From positions 1-32,734 of the IMG/VR virus record IMGVR_UViG_3300049855_000373: DNA of 32,734 bases; one strand, given 5' to 3'. The DNA comes from a virus. A program made the translations under genes and the position numbers. The notes under the pieces are model-generated. The model did not search any database, was not told the origin of the DNA, and saw only the letters and a program-made list of their open reading frames with translations. Positions 2,939-32,734 of the stretch are shown piece by piece (the stretch's first letter is position 1; each line of letters begins with the position of its first letter).

Positions 2939-4274
2939 GACAACGCTTTCCGGCTTTGAGCCTTTTGGTTATCAATGCGATGTCCTAAGATTTATCCACA
3001 ACCACAACTATGCACAATGGACACCCGAAATTCTGCTTTCGGGTTCGGTTGGCTCGGCTAAGTCTATTTTGCTGGCTCACATTGCAATCCTTCATTGCAT
3101 CCAATACCCGGGCGCTTGCGTTGCCATCGGAAGGCGATCACTTCCAGACTTAAAGAAAACTCTTTTCCGGGAAATCTTGGAACACCTTGAAGAAAGCATG
3201 ATCGAAGGCGAGCACTACGATATTCGCCACAATACCGGGGAAATCGATTTTGCGAACGGATCGAGGATTCTATCGGTGACTTGGGGGGACAAGCGCTATG
3301 GAAAGTTCCGATCGCTCAAACTCTCCATGATTCTCATCGAGGAGTTGACCGAGAACGATGACGAGTTTGAGCCAGGATTCAAGATTCTGAAGGCGCGCCT
3401 TAGGCGTATTCCAACCGTGACGCAAAACCTTTTGATTTGCGCGACTAACCCCGACGAGCCCGATTGCTTTTGGTACAAGTATTTCATCGAGGGCGCGGAG
3501 AAATATCCCAGCCGCCTAGTGTTCTACTCTGTGACAACGGACAACTTTCACCTGGACCCAGTTTATATTCAGCAACTCTTGCAAGATTATTCCCCGCTGG
3601 AAGCTGAAAGATACCTCAGAGGGCGCTGGATTTCGATTGCGGGCCTTGGAATTTATCACGCCTATACTGAGGAAGTGAATTTAAGAAAAGCTTCCTACGA
3701 TCCAGACAGGACCCTTCCCTTGCGCCTGTCGTTCGACTTCAATACCGCCGAAGGTAAACCCCAGTCATGCTGCGTTTTCCAACTCGATAAGACTGGAACC
3801 TTTCATTTCTATGGGGAGTCGATCATTGACGAAGCAAAGTGGTGTATCGACAATCTTGACGACCTCAGTGCGAAAGGATATTTCGACGGGTTCAACCGAT
3901 TCATGGTTTACGGTGATGCCACGGGCCGTGCGCGTTCCTCGAACTCGCTTCGGTCAAACTATGACCTCATCGACGAGTGGTTCGCGCAACGCCGACTCCC
4001 TATGCAGCTGTGTATCGCAAAGATAAACCCGCCAATAGTTCGGCGGTGGACAACTGTGAACGCGCTGTGTCAAAATGCAAGGCTAGAGGCTAGGCTATTT
4101 GTCTATAGCGGTTGTCCAGTGCTCAACCAAGGAATGAAACTCGCGCGGAAAAAGCCGGGAACAGCGGTTGAGGATGACAGCAAAAGATATCAGCATGTGA
4201 CAACGGCGCTAGGCTACGCGGTTTGCTTCGTTAAGGATTACGAGAACGCACAAAATAAGGTGATTCACTTATGA
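2919..4274 (+). CDS. terL: Terminase large subunit
   Basis: A 451-residue packaging motor and nuclease. The ATPase part shows a Walker A-type loop GSVGSAKS at residues 42-49, a Walker B strand SMILIEE at 136-142 with the catalytic Glu, and the coupling motif LLICATNP at 171-178. The nuclease part has the RNase H-like first acidic strand SFDFN (Asp273) and second VYGDAT (Asp333). Length is normal for the PBSX/Terminase_3-type group. It pumps DNA through the portal and cuts the concatemer. It overlaps terS by 20 bases and shares ATGA with the portal gene, so the three are translationally coupled. Family-level identification is firm. Confidence 0.95.
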   Translation: MTQKHSKTTLSGFEPFGYQCDVLRFIHNHNYAQWTPEILLSGSVGSAKSILLAHIAILHCIQYPGACVAIGRRSLPDLKKTLFREILEHLEESMIEGEHYDIRHNTGEIDFANGSRILSVTWGDKRYGKFRSLKLSMILIEELTENDDEFEPGFKILKARLRRIPTVTQNLLICATNPDEPDCFWYKYFIEGAEKYPSRLVFYSVTTDNFHLDPVYIQQLLQDYSPLEAERYLRGRWISIAGLGIYHAYTEEVNLRKASYDPDRTLPLRLSFDFNTAEGKPQSCCVFQLDKTGTFHFYGESIIDEAKWCIDNLDDLSAKGYFDGFNRFMVYGDATGRARSSNSLRSNYDLIDEWFAQRRLPMQLCIAKINPPIVRRWTTVNALCQNARLEARLFVYSGCPVLNQGMKLARKKPGTAVEDDSKRYQHVTTALGYAVCFVKDYENAQNKVIHL

Positions 4275-5734
4275 TCAATCTATTCGCGGATGAGGCTAGG
4301 AAAGAAATTGCAGGTTTCATTCGAAACGAAAGGAGCCGCCTAGAATACCAAGCCGAGATATTTGAAATCATGGAAGGCAACGTCAAGGGCCTGCTTGAGG
4401 ACCGAATGCTCGAGGACCTTGGGCCAAAGTCCTTTCAAGCAGCAAGCACTCGGCAAGCGCCGATCAATGTGTTCAGAAAGATAGTGGACAAGCTCACCAA
4501 GATTTATGACAACCCAGTCATTAGAACCGTTGAAGGTGGAACCGATCAAGACGAAAAGCTTTTGGCTTGGTATGAAGAGGTTCTAAACGTAAACCGAAAG
4601 TTCGGGAAAAATAACGAGAATTACAACGCATACCTGTATGGCCTTTTGCAAATTGGTCTCATGGACCCAAAGCCCGGAAGCCTGACAAGAGTTCCATTTA
4701 TCCGCTCGATACCGAATCACCAATTCCTAATATACAACACAAGCCGAACCGATCCGACAATGCCCGATGTCATTATCGTTTGCATGGGAAAAAGAAAAGA
4801 TTCTAAGGGTGAAATCCAGCATATATACTACGTCTACACCTCAGAAATGTTCGTCATCATTGATCAGTCAGGCGATATTATTTCGGACATGATGAATGAC
4901 AGAGAAATGGATGGAATCAATCCCTATGGAGTGACTCCATTTGCTTATGCGAACGGCTCGCAAGATTGCGTCATGCCTTCAATTCAGACCGACAACAAAG
5001 ACATGACACTGCTTATTCCCCTGCTATTGACTGACCTCAACTATGCTGTCAAATTCCAGGCGTTCTCGGTCTTTGTTGGGATTGACATCGATGACAAGCA
5101 AGTCGAGTTCTCGCCTAACTCGATCCTTTTGTTCCAGACCAAGCCGGGCGGGGAAAAGCCAAGCTTTGACGTAGTAAAGCCGACGATCGATATCAGTGAG
5201 ACGCTAAGCCTTGCCTCATCTCAAATGTCCCTATGGCTCTCGAGCAAAGGCATAAGGCCAGGGCAAATCGGCCAAATCGGAGTCGACCAACTCTCGAGCG
5301 GAATATCCAAAATGATCGAAGAGTCAGACACCTTCGATTCGATCAAAAAGCAAATTGTGATTTACGAGGAGTTCGAGAAAGTATTCTGGGAAAAACTCCT
5401 CAAAGATATTCACCCGCAATGGGTAGCAGCGGGCGTTGTCGAAAACAAAACCATCTTTACGCCATCGGCGCGCGTTGTGACCAAGTTTACTAAGCCCGTT
5501 CCCATGCAAACTCGCGGGGACCTTGTGAAGGACCTTGAGGCCGAAGTCCTAGCAGGGTTCACAAGTAAAAAGCGGGCCATCGAAATCTTGAATAGCGAAC
5601 TCACGAGCGCCGAAATTGAGGACCTCATGAGTGATATTGAAGACGAAACGCCAAAGATTACAGGAGTGATGAAAGATGGCCCGAACAACCAACAGGGAGA
5701 CCCAGTTAACACTCAAAATTCCCAAGGATTTTGA
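4271..5734 (+). CDS. Portal protein
   Basis: The 487-residue protein following terL is the expected portal. Its N-terminal half has the portal-type pattern: APINVFRKIVDKLTKIYDNPVIRT near residue 65 onward, then FGKNNENYNAYLYG around 115-130 and a barrel-like strand region. The C-terminal half contains a long helix and a polar tail with an Asp/Glu-rich segment near 455-475. It would form the dodecameric ring at the capsid vertex that docks terminase and later the tail. AAGG lies 10 bases before the ATG and the start overlaps terL's stop. The last 59 bases overlap the next gene. Confidence 0.85.
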   Translation: MINLFADEARKEIAGFIRNERSRLEYQAEIFEIMEGNVKGLLEDRMLEDLGPKSFQAASTRQAPINVFRKIVDKLTKIYDNPVIRTVEGGTDQDEKLLAWYEEVLNVNRKFGKNNENYNAYLYGLLQIGLMDPKPGSLTRVPFIRSIPNHQFLIYNTSRTDPTMPDVIIVCMGKRKDSKGEIQHIYYVYTSEMFVIIDQSGDIISDMMNDREMDGINPYGVTPFAYANGSQDCVMPSIQTDNKDMTLLIPLLLTDLNYAVKFQAFSVFVGIDIDDKQVEFSPNSILLFQTKPGGEKPSFDVVKPTIDISETLSLASSQMSLWLSSKGIRPGQIGQIGVDQLSSGISKMIEESDTFDSIKKQIVIYEEFEKVFWEKLLKDIHPQWVAAGVVENKTIFTPSARVVTKFTKPVPMQTRGDLVKDLEAEVLAGFTSKKRAIEILNSELTSAEIEDLMSDIEDETPKITGVMKDGPNNQQGDPVNTQNSQGF

Positions 5735-10415: not shown

Positions 10416-10861
10416 GCAAGGTAACCGATATTCGCTCACAGTTGAATACCCTCATTGATACAATCTTGCCAGATTATGTGAAGCTGTCGGACAGCTATGA
10501 AACTCCCGACAATGCCAACGTCATCCTAGAAAAAGGCTTTTCGATCGGCTATGGCCCATCGGAAAACACCACAGACGATTGGTGCAACGGAACACTTAGG
10601 CAACGCCGACAATTTCAGATCATTTTAACAAACATTTACACGCCGAGCCTTGACCCGGAATATCGTGAAACACTCGAAAACTCACTGCTTGACGATGAGT
10701 TCGCGCTTATCGGAGCAATTGAGCGTGACGTGACATTAGGCGGGGAAGCGATTTCCTCGCGGTTTTCATTTGATAACGGCCTTGAGTATCTCATCGACGA
10801 TCGAAAGCAGTTCATCATTATCGTGATCACGGTCACGATTGACTATGAGGAGTCAACCTAA
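10412..10861 (+). CDS. Putative tail terminator / head-tail joining protein
   Basis: A 149-residue acidic protein immediately before the tail tube gene, the usual place of the tail terminator. It has an N-terminal helix VTDIRSQLNTLIDTILPDY, a central strand pair RRQFQIILTNIY, a helix with a run of acidic residues, and a last strand KQFIIIVITVTIDYE, the alpha-beta order seen in tail terminators. The start is coupled by ATGA and GAGG 8 bases upstream; the stop overlaps the tube start as TAATG. Assignment rests on position and fold pattern. Confidence 0.55.
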   Translation: MSKVTDIRSQLNTLIDTILPDYVKLSDSYETPDNANVILEKGFSIGYGPSENTTDDWCNGTLRQRRQFQIILTNIYTPSLDPEYRETLENSLLDDEFALIGAIERDVTLGGEAISSRFSFDNGLEYLIDDRKQFIIIVITVTIDYEEST

Positions 10862-12393
10862 TGGCATTCGCTACACGTTCCAGTGTTTTTTGTTTCGTTC
10901 CAGAGGTCACTGAGGGAACTCCTGAGGACCCCGTTGCAGGTGATTTCACCGTTGTCCGCGAAGGCGCAAGTTTTTCGGGTGCTGTTAACACCGTCACTTC
11001 AGACGAACTACGAAATTCTATTGGTGCATCAAAATCATTTGTGACCTCACAAGCACCGACCGCAAGTATCCCCAAGTACCTTAAGCCGAGTGGAAGCGAA
11101 GGCGTTGCGCCTGATTATTCCATTCTCATTGAGTCATGCTTGGGCGCGGTCGACGTGAACACAACCGAATATACAACCACGGCCGGAAGCACAGCGGGGA
11201 CAACCTCGGCCCGCGCAAATCTTAAGGTGACAGCGGGCGTTGAGGCGAACTTTCAAAAGGGCCAAGCCGTTTTGATCAAGGACGCAACAAACAACTATGC
11301 CGTGCGCAACGTGATGAATGGAATCACGAGCACAAACCTTCCGCTTTCGTTCAATTTGGGCGTTGCACCTGCAACGGGAATCGGCCTTGGTAAGGCGGTT
11401 CTCTATTTACCGAGCACTTCCCAGCCAACATATACAAGCCATATGTTCCAATCGGCCGCGTCAACTTCGGCTGTGCATCAAATGATTTCCGGCTGTCGCA
11501 CCACGGCGATGAATGCGGAATTCAATGCGAACGAATTGGCAGCGGTGACGTTTGAAATCGGCGGAATTCAGTATTTCATAAACCCCATCGAAATCAGTTC
11601 TCTGAACAAATGGATCGATTTCACCGACTCGGTTGGAACCGTATCTTGCCAGCTGGCCCTAAAGTTTTATGCTACGCCTATCGACCTCGCGAACGAAATC
11701 GCGAGCAAGATGACCGCCGCTTCCGCGCCTTCCGGTGCCGATGTCATCACTTGCACTTGGTCGAACACCACTGGAAAATTCACGATCGCTTCCGATGGAT
11801 CGGTCCTAAGCCTTTTGTGGAATACCGGAACGCACACAGCGAACTCGGCAAAGACAGCGCTTGGGTTCTCTAACTCCGACGATACAGGTTCACTCACATA
11901 CACCTCGGACACGGCGCAAACTTATTACCCGGCCGTGACACCTGACTTCGATAGCCAGCCGCCGCAAGTCGTTCGCGACAATATGCTAGAACTTGGAAAC
12001 TTTTCCGATTATCTGTGCGTAGGCGGTCAAGCCCTCACAATTTCGATTTCAACTCCCAAGACCGATGTCCCCAACTGGTGTGCCGAAACTGGCATTGACG
12101 AATCGGTTGTGCTGTCGCGCGAGGTCACTATTTCTGGAACTCTCAAGTTCCAAAAGCATGATATCCAGCGTTTTTATAACCTGATCAATAACGTGGAAAC
12201 TCAGCTTGCCTTTGTTCACGGCCAAAAGATTGCCGGAAACTGGGTTCCTGGAACCATCGTTTCAATCTTTTGCCCAACTTGCTCGGTGACATCGAACACA
12301 ATCGCGGACCAAGACGGCTACATCGTCGAGCAGTTCGAAGCCACGGCTTTTGTCGGCGATGACATGGAAGACATTTATCTAAATTTCCTTTGA
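10861..12393 (+). CDS. Major tail tube protein with an inserted domain
   Basis: At 510 residues this is longer than a basic tube protein. The N-terminal part (1-235) and the C-terminal part (about 365-510, with TISISTPKTDVP, REVTISGTLKF and a final VEQFEATAFVGDD) look like tube halves. Between them, residues about 240-365 form an added module with IDFTDSVGTVSCQLALKF, FTIASDGSVLSLLWNTG and LGFSNSDDTG...YTSDT, a pattern also met in other phage tail proteins. It would stack in rings to form the tail tube, with the insert probably on the outer surface. GGAG precedes the ATG; the start overlaps the previous stop. Confidence 0.75.
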   Translation: MAFATRSSVFCFVPEVTEGTPEDPVAGDFTVVREGASFSGAVNTVTSDELRNSIGASKSFVTSQAPTASIPKYLKPSGSEGVAPDYSILIESCLGAVDVNTTEYTTTAGSTAGTTSARANLKVTAGVEANFQKGQAVLIKDATNNYAVRNVMNGITSTNLPLSFNLGVAPATGIGLGKAVLYLPSTSQPTYTSHMFQSAASTSAVHQMISGCRTTAMNAEFNANELAAVTFEIGGIQYFINPIEISSLNKWIDFTDSVGTVSCQLALKFYATPIDLANEIASKMTAASAPSGADVITCTWSNTTGKFTIASDGSVLSLLWNTGTHTANSAKTALGFSNSDDTGSLTYTSDTAQTYYPAVTPDFDSQPPQVVRDNMLELGNFSDYLCVGGQALTISISTPKTDVPNWCAETGIDESVVLSREVTISGTLKFQKHDIQRFYNLINNVETQLAFVHGQKIAGNWVPGTIVSIFCPTCSVTSNTIADQDGYIVEQFEATAFVGDDMEDIYLNFL

Positions 12394-12416: not shown

Positions 12417-12725
12417 ATGGCCGACTTTATCAAGAAAATAGAACTCAAGGACGGCAACGGATGCATTTCGTATCGCGTGCCCAATGTCATTGAACAGCTT
12501 CGTTTCTTCAGTTCGTCTGGCTGGTATTCCGATGAATGCCAGTCGGACATTTACTTGCGAACTCTCAAAGCAATCGAAGCGGGCCGAGAATTCATCGTCA
12601 AGGTCGAGGGCCTTTACTCCTCAATCGACGAACTTTTGGATGACCGGGCCTACCTAGACACGTTTATCGAATTGGCTTGGGACCTAGCCGCCGCGAAATT
12701 GGGCGACAGCACAAAAAAGACTTAA
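12417..12725 (+). CDS. Tail assembly chaperone, zero-frame product (gpG-like)
   Basis: A 102-residue acidic protein between tail tube and tape measure, the fixed place of lambda G-like chaperones. GAGG five bases before ATG 12417 supports this start; a TTG at 12390 overlapping the tube stop would add nine residues. Its last sense codons are ACA AAA AAG ACT before TAA. They contain the slippery heptamer A AAA AAG in the correct phase, so a fraction of ribosomes should shift by -1 and extend the protein by 80 residues. It would bind tape measure and tube protein during tail assembly and be absent from the virion. Confidence 0.75.
   Translation: MADFIKKIELKDGNGCISYRVPNVIEQLRFFSSSGWYSDECQSDIYLRTLKAIEAGREFIVKVEGLYSSIDELLDDRAYLDTFIELAWDLAAAKLGDSTKKT
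12713..12719 (+). promoter_or_regulatory. Programmed -1 ribosomal frameshift site
   Basis: The heptamer A AAA AAG (A at 12713, AAA 12714-12716, AAG 12717-12719) is read in the zero frame as the end of ACA, then AAA AAG. Slipping back one base makes the next codon GAC at 12719, which is in phase with the open frame ending at 12961. This is the classic signal in tail chaperone genes of lambda-like siphoviruses. Confidence 0.8.
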
Positions 12726-12961
12726 GGCTTTGCGCCGTCAATATCGTCGCGAAACAGCCTTTTCTTGACGGTGTCGAGCCAGAAAACAAGGTATCGGTGA
12801 TCCTCGCTGTGGAACTTTTGGAAGTGATACGGGGAACCGATCGGCTCAAGCTTTCAGGCCTCACGGCCAGGGATTTAACCGCGCGGGAATTTCAACTTGT
12901 GAGCTATCTAGCGTTGCAAATTGATACTTTAGGCGCAAAAGGAAAGGCAAGCCGTGGCTGA
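12719..12961 (+). CDS. Tail assembly chaperone, -1 frameshift extension (gpT-like)
   Basis: An open -1 frame of 80 codons after the slippery site, running DLRLCAVNIV to KASRG. It has no good start of its own (the frame's ATG at 12677 lies deep in the other gene with no ribosome site), which is expected for a frameshift extension. Joined to 12417-12719 it gives a fusion of about 181 residues. In lambda the extension (gpT) binds the tail tube protein while the gpG part coats the tape measure. It ends 8 bases into the tape measure gene. Confidence 0.75.
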   Translation, partial: DLRLCAVNIVAKQPFLDGVEPENKVSVILAVELLEVIRGTDRLKLSGLTARDLTAREFQLVSYLALQIDTLGAKGKASRG

Positions 12962-15188
12962 CGCTACAATCAATATTGACGTAAAGGTGAGCCCACCCGA
13001 TCCGCTCGGACAGCTTGTCAAGCAGACCAAGGAAGCGGAAACCGAAACGGGTTCACTGGCATCGGCCTTTGGGAAATTGGGCGCGGTCATCGCTGGCCTA
13101 GGCGCACTGAAGGGGACTTTCGATTTTGTCTTGGGCGCGACAAGGCAGATGGAGGACCTGACAACCCAGTTCATCGCCTTCACCGGCTCGGCCGAAGGCG
13201 CGGCGAACCAACTGGAAGCCTTATCTCAGTTTGCCTCTCAGTCCCCTTTCGAACTCGCAGAAATTGCCACGGCCAATAGAACGCTTTTGGCTTTTGGTTC
13301 CTCAACCAAGCAATCACTGGAACAGCTTCGGCAATTGGGCGAGGTAGCCGCCGCAACGGGGACTGACCTTTCGGAACTCGCGACGATCTTCGGACAGATT
13401 CAGGCGGAAGGGAAACTTACAGGCGAGCGGTTCAACCAACTTGTGGAACGCGGTGTCAATATCGGGCCTATCCTGGCCCAATCTCTCGGCGTTGCCCAAT
13501 CCTCGCTCGTTAAGTTGAGGTCCGAAGGCAAGATAACAAGCGATGAAGTCGCAAAAGCCTTCCAAAAAATGACATCGGAAGGCGGTCAATTCTTTGGATC
13601 GACCGAACGCCTAAGCAAAACAATTTCTGGTTCGCTTTCCACCCTCAAAGACAACTTCACAATTCTGGCTTCGACCGTTGGTTCTAGCGCGGTCCCCGCT
13701 TTCACTTCCCTTGTGAATATCATTAGCAAGGCCGTGGAAGGGAACATTGCATACCTCAAAGAACAGCAAAAAATTGCCAATGAGAACGAAACGCAAAAGC
13801 GGATTCGGGCCATCGGCGTCGAGGTCGATACTCTAACCAAGCAGCTTGAGGACCTAAAAAAGTCTCAAGCGGCTGGGTTCTCGTTCTTCGGTGATGACCC
13901 GCTTAAGATTGCTTCCGATATTGACGTAGTGACAACTTCGATTCGTCAATTGAGCCTTGAGCGATTGCAGCTGGCCAAAAAGCAGGGATCGGCCGACCTC
14001 GCAAAGCAGGTGGAAGCCGACAACAAAGAAGCTGAGATAGCACAGCAAAAGGCCAATGAGAAAAAGCTGGCCCTCCTGCAAGAACAAGCGGCCAAAGAAA
14101 AGGAAGCGGCCGACAAGATCGCGACCGAACGCGCTACCAAGATTCAAGAGACCGAAGCCAATATTACGCAAATCGAACTGCAAGAGGAGGCCGTTCGGCA
14201 AGCGATCCGCGCCGAGCAAGCGGGCGCGAATAAACAGGCCGCACTGGATGCCTTGAACCAACGCGAAGCCGAACTGACCTCGGCAAAGCTGACAGCCGAA
14301 GCCACGCGAGCCGATTTACTCCTGCAATTTGATCAAGCGGAACTCCTTAGGGCCCAAGACAAGCAAAACAAACTCTCTGAAATTACCAAGGCCGGGGAAG
14401 CAAAGCGCCTTGCCGACATCAAGAAAGCCAAAGATGACGATCTAAACGTCAACAAGGGCACCACAGAGGCCCTCAAAAAGTTCGAGGAGCAATCATATAC
14501 CCAAAGAGTGGACACCGCTCGAACGGGCCTTTCTGCGATTGCCAGCCTGCAAAAGTCTGGAAACCGTGATGCTTTCAACATTGGAAAGCGGGCCGCGCAA
14601 GCGCAAGTCCTCCTCGACATACCAAAGGCGGCCTTCGCGGCCTATACCTCGCTTATCGGCGTGCCCTTTGTCGGTCCAGTCCTCGCACCGCTCGCAGCGG
14701 CGGCGGCGGTCTTTGCCGGAACCCAGCAATTAAGGCAAATCGAAGCACAGCAACCACCCGGCTTCGCCGAAGGCGGTTTGGTTCCTGGAACCGGAAACAA
14801 AGACACGGTTCCGGCACTGCTTACGCCCGGTGAGGTTGTCGTTCCAAAGAAGAACTTCGCCGATTTGCAGCAAGGCATGGTTCAAGGTTCGATTGCCAGC
14901 GATCAAGTCATTCTATTGCAGCAAGGCAACGCCATCACCGGCAAGATTTTGGATGAGTTGACGTTCGGAACTGTAAACGAAAAGCTGACAATCATGATCA
15001 AGCTTTTAAATGACACGGTCGGAGGACTCGACAAGATCGCAGTAGCAGCGGCGGCGGCTAGTTCACCGGCCACAACCGAAGCAAACGTTGCTGAGATTCA
15101 GCAAAACCAACCAAGACCGAGCGGATATGGCTCGGACCCTGGAAGGCCGAAGGAAATAAAACGCTCTACACCACAGCAAACAGCGTGA
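12954..15188 (+). CDS. Tape measure protein
   Basis: The 744-residue product has the tape-measure order: a short N-terminus, a hydrophobic segment KLGAVIAGLGALKGTFDFVL near 41-60, a conserved N-terminal tape measure domain at about 63-245 (with FIAFTGSAEGAANQLEAL and ASQSPFELAEIA), a long coiled-coil rich in Ala, Glu and Lys at about 265-540, then a hydrophobic Ala-rich segment and the common motif GFAEGGLVPGTGNKDTVPAL with LTPGEVVVPK near 600-640. It sets tail length and enters the cell on DNA ejection. By the usual ratio of length to residues the tail would be of moderate length. A GTG start has AAAGGA upstream and overlaps the chaperone extension. Confidence 0.9.
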   Translation: MADATINIDVKVSPPDPLGQLVKQTKEAETETGSLASAFGKLGAVIAGLGALKGTFDFVLGATRQMEDLTTQFIAFTGSAEGAANQLEALSQFASQSPFELAEIATANRTLLAFGSSTKQSLEQLRQLGEVAAATGTDLSELATIFGQIQAEGKLTGERFNQLVERGVNIGPILAQSLGVAQSSLVKLRSEGKITSDEVAKAFQKMTSEGGQFFGSTERLSKTISGSLSTLKDNFTILASTVGSSAVPAFTSLVNIISKAVEGNIAYLKEQQKIANENETQKRIRAIGVEVDTLTKQLEDLKKSQAAGFSFFGDDPLKIASDIDVVTTSIRQLSLERLQLAKKQGSADLAKQVEADNKEAEIAQQKANEKKLALLQEQAAKEKEAADKIATERATKIQETEANITQIELQEEAVRQAIRAEQAGANKQAALDALNQREAELTSAKLTAEATRADLLLQFDQAELLRAQDKQNKLSEITKAGEAKRLADIKKAKDDDLNVNKGTTEALKKFEEQSYTQRVDTARTGLSAIASLQKSGNRDAFNIGKRAAQAQVLLDIPKAAFAAYTSLIGVPFVGPVLAPLAAAAAVFAGTQQLRQIEAQQPPGFAEGGLVPGTGNKDTVPALLTPGEVVVPKKNFADLQQGMVQGSIASDQVILLQQGNAITGKILDELTFGTVNEKLTIMIKLLNDTVGGLDKIAVAAAAASSPATTEANVAEIQQNQPRPSGYGSDPGRPKEIKRSTPQQTA

Positions 15189-22463: not shown

Positions 22464-23921
22464 ATGAAACTTTTAAGATTCATTCCCATATTCATGGCCT
22501 TAGGCTGTCAGCCAGCTGCTACGAAAACCGTTCAAGCGCCTTCCATTCCGCAATTGCCGGTTGAGGAACCGCCGCCTGTTCAACCGGGTAAGCCCGGCTT
22601 TGTTCGATTCGATGAAATCGAGCAATACGTGGACCGCGATATCAAAACACTGAACGCCGCCGACCGGCCTAAAACTCGATACCTCATCGGGTGTAATTTC
22701 CTCGACCAAGGCATCGATGACTTGTCTGATCATAAAGCGGGCGTAAACAAAGGCCTAAACATGATTTCGACCGAAAGATTGATCACAACCGCCGACACAA
22801 TCGACGATTCGGGGTGCATATGGCGGATCAATATCGACGATATCGGAATGACCACAGAGGAATGGCAAAAGGTTGAGCGGAATAACGTGCTCCCATTTAT
22901 CAGTGACTCGGTTCGCGGCCGAACAATTCGGGCGCTGGCAAACACAAACCAGCCATTGGTTTACGCTTCCAGCTTTTTTTTGACCGTGATGCAAGCCGAC
23001 CAAGTCTCGATCGGAAACCAACTCTACTATGATTTGACCGAGCAACCTCTAAACGATACCGAGTTCGTCGCGAAGCTTGGAATAAACCTTCAGGGCGAGT
23101 TCAATGACGAGGGACCTGCTTGCGCGGGCGGTGGGCGTTCTCAAATCGCATTGGGCAAGCCAAGGCTCATTTGCATCCTCGACACGACAGCAGACGGCTT
23201 TCTGATGTTCACAGCAGATACGTCACTCGCGAAGAATGATTCCATCCTTCAAAATCCATTCTTGGGAGAGATGGCCGCCATACCTGGATCGGTGACACCC
23301 AAGATTTTCAAATTTGTGGCGAGGGAATGGATATTCTCGATGCCAAATGGACTTATGACAGGCTACAGGCTTAGCAACGCGGGTGGAACAGCCGAAGTCA
23401 TAGCTCCGACCAACGTTGTCATTGACATCGAGCAAGCGGGCAAAGGCCTTCCACCTGACATCACGCTCGGAGCATGTTCGAACTGTCATCACCAAGAGGC
23501 AGGAATATTTTTCAAAGACGAAGTGTTCAACTCGGTTCGAAACAACGGAAACTTCAACACCGCCGAAAAGCAATTGGCCGAAGTCTTTTATCGCGCCGAT
23601 AAGTTTCAAGCTAAGCGGACTGTGGCAAATCAAAACCATACTAGGGCGCTCAAGGAAATCGGCGTGAGCACGTTCAAAGAGGACCCATTGGTGACCAATA
23701 TCATTCAACCCCTACGCGGTGAGCTAACGGCCGAAGATGTTGCGGGCTACCTTTTTATGGAAACCGATGACTTTAAGATTCGGCTCAATGGAACGAACCT
23801 CAGCAAAGTCTTGTTTGGCTCACTCATCGATGGCGGCGTGGTTCCATTGCAAGATTTCGTTAGAGGCTTTGGGGCATTGAAGGATGAGTTAATCCTTTTC
23901 AGAGATGAGGGACAGCTGTGA
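22464..23921 (+). CDS. Large lipoprotein with one heme-c (CxxCH) motif
   Basis: A 485-residue protein beginning MKLLRFIPIFMALGC, a lipoprotein signal with lipidated Cys15, then a Pro-rich linker to about residue 45. The long middle part has no recognised domain. At 338-342 lies CSNCH followed by another His and a Gly/Phe-rich segment, the covalent heme-c attachment motif, so heme would be added in the periplasm by the host maturation system. Other Cys in the middle region may form disulfides. A single heme site in such a long lipoprotein is unusual. The gene overlaps the next cytochrome gene as GTGA, so both are coupled. It looks like cargo, not a virion gene; the electron partner is unknown. 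Confidence 0.65.
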   Translation: MKLLRFIPIFMALGCQPAATKTVQAPSIPQLPVEEPPPVQPGKPGFVRFDEIEQYVDRDIKTLNAADRPKTRYLIGCNFLDQGIDDLSDHKAGVNKGLNMISTERLITTADTIDDSGCIWRINIDDIGMTTEEWQKVERNNVLPFISDSVRGRTIRALANTNQPLVYASSFFLTVMQADQVSIGNQLYYDLTEQPLNDTEFVAKLGINLQGEFNDEGPACAGGGRSQIALGKPRLICILDTTADGFLMFTADTSLAKNDSILQNPFLGEMAAIPGSVTPKIFKFVAREWIFSMPNGLMTGYRLSNAGGTAEVIAPTNVVIDIEQAGKGLPPDITLGACSNCHHQEAGIFFKDEVFNSVRNNGNFNTAEKQLAEVFYRADKFQAKRTVANQNHTRALKEIGVSTFKEDPLVTNIIQPLRGELTAEDVAGYLFMETDDFKIRLNGTNLSKVLFGSLIDGGVVPLQDFVRGFGALKDELILFRDEGQL

Positions 23922-24235
23922 GAAGAATCCTTTCTTTGAGTTTTTTGATCATGACCTTGTCTTGTGGTGCTCCTGAGGCTGACAAGGAACCGACCGAGCC
24001 AGCACCACAGCCAACGCCTTCCCCCACGCCCGGGGGAAGGACTAGCTTTGCCGAAGCACAGTCAATCATGCAAAGCTATTGCGCCGAATGTCATGCGAAC
24101 GCTGGGTTTATCAAAAGCGAAACAGCCTTGAAGGCCAGCACGGCAAAAGCCAGGGTCCAGAACGCGACAATGCCGCCGCCTTATGCGGATCAAATGTCAG
24201 CGGCCGATCGCGGGAAGTTCCTGAATTTTTTTTGA
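23918..24235 (+). CDS. Small c-type cytochrome lipoprotein
   Basis: A 105-residue protein starting at GTG 23918 (GTGA overlap with the previous stop). It has a lipoprotein signal with Cys16 in lipobox TLSC, a Pro/Thr linker at 20-40 and a mono-heme cytochrome c domain: heme motif CAECH at 55-59 and a likely distal ligand Met85 in ATMPPP, followed by the helix SAADRGKFLNFF that ends such domains. It would carry electrons at the outer face of a periplasmic membrane. Its coupling to the large heme lipoprotein suggests that they work together. Cytochrome c genes are very rare in phages. Confidence 0.75.
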   Translation: MRRILSLSFLIMTLSCGAPEADKEPTEPAPQPTPSPTPGGRTSFAEAQSIMQSYCAECHANAGFIKSETALKASTAKARVQNATMPPPYADQMSAADRGKFLNFF

Positions 24236-25433: not shown

Positions 25434-25925
25434 ATGTTAAAGCACATTTTTGGGACTTTTTCCATTGCTGTTTTGCTAGGCAGTACGCCGATTCTCGCGG
25501 CTGGCAAGTGTGAATTCTTTGCAAAGGCATCGGTCGGTGTTTTGGAATTCACCGGAACAGGATGCACGGTCGAAGGAAAGCCAAAGATCGAAGGCGGGAA
25601 AGTGTCCGGGGAATTCACGGTTGACCTGACAAAACTCGATGCTGGGGTTCGGTCGGAGCATATGCATGACAAGTATCTTGAGACCAAGAAATTCCCTAAG
25701 GCAATCTTAAAACTCGATCCAATGCCAGAATCGGGCGGTGCTTTTACGGGAAAGCTAACACTCCACGGTATCGAAAAATCCGTTTCAGGAAACGCCGAGA
25801 AGTCGGCCAGCGGTTTCTCGTTCAAATTCGAAGTAAACACACCGGATTTTGGAATCGCCGAAGCATCCTATAAGGGAATAACCATTGCGAAAACTGTCGC
25901 TATTTCTGGCTCTATTGATAAGTGA
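25434..25925 (+). CDS. YceI-family periplasmic protein
   Basis: The 163-residue product has a signal peptide (MLKHIFGTFSIAVLLGSTPILAA, cleavage near residue 23) and a YceI lipocalin-like domain. The best landmark is LDAGVRSEHMHDKYLETKKF at about 68-87, matching the family's conserved RxxHM-x2-KYL segment, followed by ILKL, a GKLTLHG strand and a final SISG-like strand. YceI proteins bind polyisoprenoid-like lipids in the periplasm and often lie beside cytochromes. The start has AAGG 10 bases upstream. The last 41 bases overlap the cytochrome-porin gene. This is a host-type gene, unusual in a phage. Confidence 0.85.
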   Translation: MLKHIFGTFSIAVLLGSTPILAAGKCEFFAKASVGVLEFTGTGCTVEGKPKIEGGKVSGEFTVDLTKLDAGVRSEHMHDKYLETKKFPKAILKLDPMPESGGAFTGKLTLHGIEKSVSGNAEKSASGFSFKFEVNTPDFGIAEASYKGITIAKTVAISGSIDK

Positions 25926-26922
25926 TATCGGTTTGGGTTATCCTCAGACAATAGTCCACGGATATCAGACGTGTGTGACCTGTCATGCATCCATTGACGG
26001 CGGTGACACACTGAATAACTACGGGCGCGCGATGACTGAAGAATTCATGGCTACCTTCGCACGCGAGGGGGAAGCTAGAGAGTTCTTCGGCCTAGCCGAA
26101 TCAGACGCGATTGACCTTGGTTTAGAGTATCGAAACCTAAAGGTGACCGATGCAAAAACTGGCAAGTCTGATCAGTTCCCTATGTATTCGGTTGGGCAAT
26201 TGGTGCTTAGACATGCTGGCCTGTCTGTGCTTGCTAGTGTTGGATATTTTGGACGTGACCGGACTTATCAGACAAGACTTTGGTGGGTGAACTATAATGT
26301 CAGTGCTGACTCTCATCGTCTGGATTTTAAGCTCGGTTATTGGCTCCCTGTGGTTGGGATTGGCCTCAATAATCATGATCTTTCGATCAAAAAAGGACAG
26401 GGGTTCGGGCGCGGACAAGAAAGATTCATTTCCCAAGTGAGCTATGGCAATCGCTGGCTTGAGGGCAAGATCATGATGGCCCGAAAAGACATCGACATCG
26501 AAAAGGGCGAGGATAACTTTCCCTCCAACCGATCCGAATCACCTGAGGAAATCCTAGGACAACTCCTTTTCAGACGCATCGAGGGCTTTGAGTTCGGCCT
26601 ACACGGTCGGCAAACCGATGGAAAAAATTCTCTGCAAGGATTCTCGACCCGCCTAGCAAAAAAGAAAGCCTACATTTTCCTTCAACAAGACTTCGATCCG
26701 CTCAAACAGGTCCGCGCGAGCTATGGCCGTGGCGGGTTCTTTCTGATCAGAGGGCTTGACCTTTACTATGAGGTCGATCGCCTTGAGACCAAAACCACGG
26801 CAACGGACACAAGAACTTTGGGGTTCAACTGGATGCTAAGGCCACGCTTTGAATATGAAGGGAGCTACGCCCAATGGCGCGAGGGATCGGCTTACCAGAC
26901 GAGTTTGAAGGTCTGGCTGTAA
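25885..26922 (+). CDS. Outer-membrane beta-barrel with N-terminal heme-c motif (cytochrome-porin fusion)
   Basis: A 345-residue protein starting at TTG 25885, with AAGGGA seven bases upstream. A signal peptide (residues 1-19, MRKLSLFLALLISDIGLG) is followed by the heme-c site TCVTCHAS (Cys30, Cys33, His34), a short linker with NNYGRAM, then about 270 residues of alternating polar/hydrophobic strands with aromatic ends (for example RLWWVNYNV, FKLGYWLPVV, RFEYEGSYAQW), typical of a beta-barrel. Ending in Leu instead of Phe is not unusual. It would place a heme at the periplasmic mouth of a pore. The gene overlaps YceI by 41 bases, so both are coupled, and overlaps the nuclease gene at its 3' end. 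The family is recognised only in outline. Confidence 0.65.
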   Translation: MRKLSLFLALLISDIGLGYPQTIVHGYQTCVTCHASIDGGDTLNNYGRAMTEEFMATFAREGEAREFFGLAESDAIDLGLEYRNLKVTDAKTGKSDQFPMYSVGQLVLRHAGLSVLASVGYFGRDRTYQTRLWWVNYNVSADSHRLDFKLGYWLPVVGIGLNNHDLSIKKGQGFGRGQERFISQVSYGNRWLEGKIMMARKDIDIEKGEDNFPSNRSESPEEILGQLLFRRIEGFEFGLHGRQTDGKNSLQGFSTRLAKKKAYIFLQQDFDPLKQVRASYGRGGFFLIRGLDLYYEVDRLETKTTATDTRTLGFNWMLRPRFEYEGSYAQWREGSAYQTSLKVWL

Positions 26923-28174: not shown

Positions 28175-28810
28175 TTACTTGATTACAGGGAGGTTTTCAC
28201 TCAAAAACTTTGTCGCATCCTTGAGAGTAGCTAGGTTCCATGAATTGATAACAGCCGTGCTTTGAATATTTAAAAGCTTCGTGACGGTTTCAGGGCCATG
28301 CGCTGCAACATAGTTTCGAATCAGAGCCAACTGATCGGCTTTGATTTTTGGGTCATCGGCTTTTACAGCCGGAACAGGCGCTTTTACGTTAGCAGCGGCT
28401 GGCCTTTGTTCGGGCTTTCTGTCCTCAGGCGCGGCGTCAATATCCTCGTCGGCGGTCAAATTTAAAAGCGCGGCGTAGGCATACCTTCGGCCGTAAGTGA
28501 CTATGCTTCCCATGTCTTGAGCGGGAACCTTTGCGCGGCCAACGCTATCGAGAGGCATTGGAATGCTGGCACTTAGTTTTTCACCCGATGCATCGGAAAG
28601 AAAAGCGGTCACGATAAGCCAGGGCTTTTGGGCTATTTCGATTGCTTCGGTTGTGGTATGCACCGATAGGCCCTGGCTTTGAAGGCCTTCGGTGGTAGCT
28701 GAAACAATTTCATCAAGATCGGCGTATTTATAATTGTAAGCTTGCCGATTTTTCCCAAAAGGTCTGAAAAGTTTTCTGGCCTCAACTAGCTTTTGCACAA
28801 TTGTAGTCAT
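28175..28810 (-). CDS. erf: ERF-family single-strand annealing protein
   Basis: A 211-residue recombination protein. The ERF domain covers residues 1-140: NYKYADLDEIV near 26, a central strand WLIVTAFLSDASGEKL, and the family signature QDMGSIVTYGRRYAYAALL with LTADEDIDA (about 98-128). The C-terminal part is a Pro/Ala/Lys linker and a helical tail, as in other ERF proteins. It anneals complementary single strands during phage recombination and genome circularisation. The start ATG overlaps the stop of the Gp157-like gene. The partner exonuclease is not evident in this window; the VRR-NUC nuclease may assist. Confidence 0.85.
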   Translation of the reverse strand: MTTIVQKLVEARKLFRPFGKNRQAYNYKYADLDEIVSATTEGLQSQGLSVHTTTEAIEIAQKPWLIVTAFLSDASGEKLSASIPMPLDSVGRAKVPAQDMGSIVTYGRRYAYAALLNLTADEDIDAAPEDRKPEQRPAAANVKAPVPAVKADDPKIKADQLALIRNYVAAHGPETVTKLLNIQSTAVINSWNLATLKDATKFLSENLPVIK

Positions 28811-31479: not shown

Positions 31480-32112
31480 TTACTCCGCGAATTTAAAGGT
31501 TAAACCTTTTTGAGTCTGTTTAGCTCTGCCATTCAAAATATTAGATATGGAATTTTTGTGTATATTGTGATGGGATGCTGCTTCAAATACAGACCCAAAT
31601 AAATTACCTAAATTATCCGCTATTTTCTTTCTTTTCAAATATACTTCTTTACCAGTTTTTGATTTTGAAATCTTCTCTCTTGTAAATTCAGTCACAATTC
31701 TATTTTTATTAGACTCTATCAAGGACTGAATTACATGATTTGGTCTTTTTTTCCCAATCAACTTGTTGCCACCTATCCTTCCACCTCCTCTTTCTCTCGA
31801 TGAATCACCGATGTTTTTTCGTGCTTTTTTAGTATGGGTATATCCATCAGACCCTTTGCCACCATTAGTCATGTTTGCTTCACAGTATCCAAGTGACTTG
31901 TAAAGTTTGATAAATTCTTTTTCCTTTTCAAAAGCATCATTTTCACTAAGATTTCGCACCATTATTTCCGCTTCAAAATCACTATTTTCTACTATTCCTT
32001 GCCATATTTTATTTCGTCTAAGCTTTGAAAAAGATCTTTTATTTCTGCCTTTTCCAACATAGAAAGGCGTATTGGTATCCAATCTAATGTGCCTGTAAAC
32101 GTAATAACTCAT
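31480..32112 (-). CDS. GIY-YIG homing endonuclease
   Basis: The 210-residue product starts at ATG 32112 with AAAGGAAAT before it; the longer frame to 32199 overlaps the upstream gene. The GIY-YIG core is SYYVYRHIRLDTNTPFYVGK at 2-21 with its active-site Arg/Glu region following (KGRNKRS and IWQGIV), then Lys-rich modules ending with a NUMOD-like TREKISKSKTGK and a helix-turn-helix tail FEAASHHNIHKNSISN. It is far more A+T-rich than its neighbours, as expected of a recent mobile insertion. It lies between two paralogous virion genes without an intron, so it is a free-standing endonuclease that would copy itself into related phages. Confidence 0.85.
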   Translation of the reverse strand: MSYYVYRHIRLDTNTPFYVGKGRNKRSFSKLRRNKIWQGIVENSDFEAEIMVRNLSENDAFEKEKEFIKLYKSLGYCEANMTNGGKGSDGYTHTKKARKNIGDSSRERGGGRIGGNKLIGKKRPNHVIQSLIESNKNRIVTEFTREKISKSKTGKEVYLKRKKIADNLGNLFGSVFEAASHHNIHKNSISNILNGRAKQTQKGLTFKFAE

Positions 32113-32120
32113 ATTTCCTT

Positions 32121-32734
32121 TCAAGAATTCACAAATAAAATTTCCCCGCGATAGCCGCCTGTCGCAGTTCCACCGCGCCCGATAATGAAATTCAGGCAAG
32201 CGCCTTCGATCACTTCCGGGGGATTTTGGCCGAATATTCCGAAGTTCTTTTCAACTGGGACCGTTGTCTCATAAATGGGGACAGTGAGGATTGGACGAAC
32301 GATAGCAGCACAAATAAACCCACCGCCTGAACCACCCATGGTGACCGATTCAATCAATTGAACTCCCGTATCACTCCCGGCGAGCGGGAAAAAAGGCGTT
32401 GCCTGTCCAGCACCGCCGCCTGTTCCTACGCCCGTTGCGCAAACTCCGATCGCAGCACCTGGAATGATGTTATGAGTGGAAGTTCTTCCGCTAACGCCAT
32501 CCTGGTTCGTATATTTGATCGTGATCGGCGCGGTTGTGGCCAAAGGTGATTGAACGATTAGGACAATTTTTCCAGACGAATAGCGGGGAATTGTTTCGAA
32601 GTTATCTAAAACTTGTTCGGCGGGGTCATCGGTATCAATCAAAGAATAAAATAGCAGGTAATCGAGCAAGTAAACTTGGTCTGGGGGACCGTTGGCAACG
32701 GTTGTTTGAATGAATTGGCAGGATAAAACATGCT
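32121..32734 (-). CDS. Virion structural protein, cut by window end
   Basis: The frame stays open to the right edge, so the start lies outside the window; a TTG at 32669 is probably internal. The visible residues include YLLDYLLFYSLIDTDD, IKYTNQDGVSGRTS, PFFPLAGSDTGVQLIESVTM, IVRPILTVPI and IEGACLNFIIGRGG. These match the C-terminal half of the gene at 30597 in order, so the two are paralogues separated by the endonuclease. The TGA stop lies 8 bases before the endonuclease start and overlaps its ribosome site. Confidence 0.7.
   Translation of the reverse strand, partial: HVLSCQFIQTTVANGPPDQVYLLDYLLFYSLIDTDDPAEQVLDNFETIPRYSSGKIVLIVQSPLATTAPITIKYTNQDGVSGRTSTHNIIPGAAIGVCATGVGTGGGAGQATPFFPLAGSDTGVQLIESVTMGGSGGGFICAAIVRPILTVPIYETTVPVEKNFGIFGQNPPEVIEGACLNFIIGRGGTATGGYRGEILFVNS

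Follow-up and report, generated by a model that had tools for sequence, protein, structure and literature searches.

In phage lambda, the tail assembly proteins G and GT are produced by a -1 programmed frameshift (Levin 1993; Xu, Hendrix and Duda 2004, 2013, as summarised in PMC5009743), and G-T frameshifting of this kind is widely conserved across long-tailed phages (PMC5009743). According to the same source, A_AAA_AAG ranks among the heptamers most prone to shifting in E. coli, where it constitutes the dnaX site, and CC is the most shift-prone dinucleotide when it directly follows a heptamer on the 3' side (PMC5009743). Tail-chaperone frameshifts on AAAAAAG have been listed for VT1-Sakai, psiM2, PVL, PV83, ul36 and a Borrelia prophage, and another has been predicted for Burkholderia phage AH2 (PMC3483164). 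The same heptamer is also listed for the tail chaperone gene of Paenibacillus larvae phages (PMC6003738).

The locus described here belongs to a window of 32,734 nucleotides, which is the whole stretch of viral DNA that was analysed, and all the features of the shift region lie on its + strand. An earlier note on this DNA had claimed that a -1 frameshift joins the two frames of a tail chaperone. This claim is supported by a conserved slippery heptamer, by selection acting on the -1 frame, by synteny, by the exclusion of alternative starts in several relatives and by weak fold matches. On the basis of these comparisons, we consider it highly probable that the region 12417-12961 encodes a tail assembly chaperone subject to -1 programmed frameshifting of the lambda G/GT type.

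The region is flanked by two tail genes. The probable major tail protein gene (10861-12393, + strand, 510 aa) was named from its position only; its product has no Pfam or PHROG match and none in phage records. On the other side, the tail length tape measure protein gene (12954-15188, + strand, 744 aa, GTG start) was identified by its Pfam (PF20155 TMP_3, E 3.4e-28) and PHROG profiles (tape measure families, down to E 1.3e-40). With the tape measure protein, the chaperone or its extension as query, searches retrieved 15 other contigs in which the region is intact. These related virus contigs come from many metagenomes and are designated by L-numbers; two of them, L006 and L007, represent nearly the same virus. 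The relatives share the order tail protein, chaperone, tape measure, interrupted by a single inserted gene in L004 and L008. A homologue of the 10861-12393 product (55-89% identical) is encoded immediately 5' of the chaperone in 12 of the 14 relatives tested; in L004 and L008 it lies further 5' by one gene. The inserted gene, which separates the probable major tail protein gene from the chaperone gene, is Tad2-like (anti-Thoeris, PF11195); in L008 it occupies positions 4267-4467 (PF11195, E 5e-15) and the L004 copy was recognised by eye.

The zero-frame ORF (12417-12725, + strand) encodes a putative G-like tail assembly chaperone of 102 aa, a name based on the conservation of the gene in the relatives (34-79% identity to the window in the 15 contigs) and on weak fold matches. 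Its best start is the ATG at 12417, which aligns with the ATG of L002 and L003 and has GAGGA upstream; an alternative in-frame start, TTG, is present at 12390. At the other end of this ORF, the slippery heptamer A AAA AAG (12713-12719, + strand) was read directly from the sequence and has the X_XXY_YYZ phase that the earlier note had attributed to it: the zero-frame codons at the site are ACA (12711), AAA (12714), AAG (12717), ACT (12720) and TAA (12723-12725). The heptamer and the stop are separated by one sense codon (ACT), and not by three codons as had been proposed.

Five in-phase copies of AAAAAAG occur among the genes predicted on the + strand of the window, so that the motif is not rare by itself; among the five, only the copy at 12713 sits one codon before a stop and opens onto a long conserved -1 frame. 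All 15 intact relatives keep a slippery heptamer in phase at this place (A AAA AAG in 13 of them, A AAA AAA in L021 and L022). The loss of the heptamer in relatives with both frames open, which had been put forward as an observation that would speak against the frameshift, was not found. Elsewhere in these genes, lysine codons are split between 47 AAG and 43 AAA, and the fixed AAA-AAG pair is therefore not a matter of codon bias. The placement of the heptamer, given its position relative to the stop, the conserved -1 frame behind it and its retention in 15/15 relatives, is beyond chance.

The spacing between heptamer and stop is identical in all the relatives, and the stop is either TAA or TGA with GG always next to it. 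This TRA-GG arrangement (12723-12727 in the window, and the equivalent positions in every member) makes AGG the third codon of the -1 frame. The fixed one-codon spacing and TRA-GG may follow from the invariant arginine (AGG) of the extension, or may matter for slippage.

The open -1 frame of the window begins at 12644. After the slip, it continues for 80 codons up to a stop that ends at 12961, sharing its last 8 nt with the tape measure gene (GTG 12954); the earlier reading of 80 codons leading to this gene was accurate. The resulting T-like extension (12719-12961, + strand, 80 aa plus stop), which would be reached by the predicted frameshift, is 51-71% identical to that of the window in most relatives and 26-45% identical in the most distant ones, with synonymous sites near saturation in comparisons with the window. 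For the pairs with measurable dS, dN/dS of the extension is about 0.05-0.3 in the -1 frame versus about 0.7-2.1 when the same DNA is read in the zero frame. These substitution ratios indicate that the -1 part evolves as a protein in the -1 frame only, under purifying selection. This selection, together with the recurrence of the architecture in 15 further contigs drawn from many metagenomes, argues against an overlap created by a sequencing indel or by the decay of a once-continuous gene, an explanation to which we give practically no credence.

The overlap could also correspond to two separate genes, the second being translationally coupled to the first and starting at TTG 12677 (or at a later GTG or TTG). 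The codon at 12677, which had been reported as a false ATG, is in fact this TTG, in frame and upstream of the slip, and L003 has a TTG at the equivalent place. However, neither TTG is preceded by a Shine-Dalgarno-like sequence (the sequence before TTG 12677 is CGTTTATCGAATTGGC). Moreover, in L002, L004, L005, L006/L007 and L008, a -1 stop located 3-12 nt 5' of the heptamer blocks the upstream starts and no ATG, GTG or TTG occurs between this stop and the heptamer, yet the extension is still conserved from the first residues past the slip. The next ATG, GTG or TTG lies 216 nt downstream in L002, near the end of the extension, and none occurs until 102 nt in L004. Since these relatives combine a -1 stop that no start follows with conservation beginning right after the slip, frameshifting is the only plausible access to their extension, and initiation of a separate second gene appears very improbable.

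Transcriptional slippage at the A run, producing mixed mRNAs in both frames, would be another way of joining the two parts. Such slippage usually requires at least about nine A in a row. With 8-9 A, the run in L004, L008, L021 and L022 has a length that would suit it, but there are just six A in the window, L002, L003, L006 and L009-L012. In addition, tandem tRNA slippage would account for the unvarying codon phase and for the terminal G of nearly every copy, and the near clade carries a predicted hairpin at ribosomal spacing. We therefore hold transcriptional slippage to be scarcely credible and retain ribosomal -1 frameshifting as the reading of this locus.

The candidate stimulatory hairpin of the window (12726-12780, + strand, with arms at 12726-12741 and 12765-12780) comprises 15 bp with one internal mismatch, begins 6 nt 3' of the heptamer and has a predicted energy of -25.6 kcal/mol. 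Its structure was compared with that of 500 shuffles preserving the -1 protein and its codons. The native structure was equalled by 23-33 of the 500 shuffles in the window, which is marginal, by 1-3 in L002/L003 and by only one in L006/L007 (at 78-90 nt), the stem of L006 being offset in register; the hairpins of the nearest relatives are stronger than that of the window. The hairpin of L004 is shorter (7/500 at 60 nt), L021/L022 give a weak signal, and no hairpin signal was obtained in the remaining relatives with these codon-preserving shuffles. We consequently rejected the hairpin as a family-wide trait, the shuffles supporting it in the near clade alone (window, L002, L003, L006, L007). 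In this clade a stimulatory hairpin is likely, judging from the predicted folds; its stems either shift in register from one near relative to the next or show hardly any variation. Visual inspection for a Shine-Dalgarno-like stimulator on the 5' side revealed none as a conserved feature; Rfam has no match over the shift site. The dinucleotide that follows the slippery site is CC in most relatives and AC in the window. A further proposal, according to which the chaperone family is without sequence relatives in the searched libraries and its stop codon, invariably one codon past the slippery site and with GG behind it, might through termination kinetics contribute to the shift signal in the hairpin-less members, seems to us unlikely.

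With regard to protein identity, PHROG gave no significant match for the zero-frame part or for the extension, and Pfam gave none for the zero-frame part, both searches including a scan of all the 15 aligned members. A PDB sequence search and a search of 50,697 phage records were equally without match, and no related prophage was found in the genome collection. The zero-frame part and the extension were modelled separately and the structure-library search was conducted with the zero-frame part, whose model has a mean pLDDT of 75. Its best Foldseek match in the PDB is the HK97 tail assembly chaperone 2ob9, at a weak E of 0.72. A second structure comparison gave 2ob9 a Z of 3.2 over 83 residues and higher values to 3fgx (5.9), 3klu (4.8) and 5ir0 (4.7). 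Several of the best viral structure matches are named tail assembly chaperones, here again weakly (E 0.014 and above). For all of them, Foldseek E exceeds 0.001 and Z lies between 3 and 6; each of these model-based matches is weak, and together they agree with the position of the gene.

We propose that, from one start at 12417, two chaperones would be encoded through 12961, as are lambda G and GT. Most ribosomes would remain in the zero frame and terminate at 12725, giving the G-like protein of 102 aa. We infer that in a minority of them the Lys-tRNAs, placed on A AAA AAG in the ribosomal P and A sites, would slip back by one base, and that the hairpin located 6 nt downstream probably slows ribosomes at the moment of the slip. 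Past the slip, these ribosomes would translate a further 80 codons in the -1 frame, and the resulting fusion would measure about 181 aa (...STKK-DLRL...). The junction peptide STKKDLR of the earlier note agrees with this predicted junction (STKK|DLR). By analogy with lambda, both of these presumed chaperones would attach to the tape measure protein, and the role of the extension would be to recruit the major tail protein and so start the polymerisation of the tube.

Other genes of the virus were also considered. A conserved cargo (22464-24235 and 25434-26922) lies between tail-fibre-like and nuclease genes. It encodes a YceI-like protein (PF04264, E 7e-16) together with three proteins bearing CxxCH motifs of the haem c type (CSNCH, CAECH, CVTCH), a content that is unusual for a siphovirus. 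Among 10 related virus records, homologues were found in 5/10 for the 485 aa protein, in 7/10 (two partial) for the 345 aa protein and in 6/10 for the 163 aa protein, and the CxxCH motifs are retained in the relatives checked. On the - strand, 28175-28810 encodes an ERF-type recombination protein (PF04404, E 3e-20), and 31480-32199 a possible homing endonuclease with weak, below-cutoff I-HmuI/NUMOD matches and a GIY-YIG-like start recognised by eye.

The frameshift proposed here corrects the annotation, since the two ORFs would form a single gene with two products, and it assigns a tail chaperone to a virus group in which no profile match had pointed to one. The relatives also offer a natural series: heptamer and stop spacing do not vary, while a hairpin is present in one clade and apparently absent from the others. 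Such a series helps to ask how much stimulation A AAA AAG needs. Knowledge of tail assembly itself is unchanged by the finding.

Compared with lambda G/GT, the locus has the same overlapping frames between the (here presumed) major tail protein and tape measure genes, and the same predicted -1 slip towards the 3' end of the first frame on an X_XXY_YYZ heptamer. The lambda heptamer is G GGA AAG, whereas it is A AAA AAG here, with the stop one codon past the site. Unlike lambda G and GT, the proteins encoded here are without detectable sequence similarity to known families. The HK97 chaperone 2ob9, which tops the Foldseek PDB matches of the zero-frame model, shares 6-18% identity with it, and homology is not proven. 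E. coli dnaX has the same A_AAA_AAG site and its signal includes a downstream hairpin. However, dnaX is a different gene, in which slippage leads to a shorter product, and by eye we saw here no Shine-Dalgarno-like stimulator upstream of the site. The phages with AAAAAAG at this gene (PMC3483164, PMC6003738) resemble the present virus in heptamer, gene position and proposed role, but no sequence relationship to them was found (50,697 phage records). The site is real but ordinary; AAAAAAG at the tail chaperone gene is already documented in other phages.
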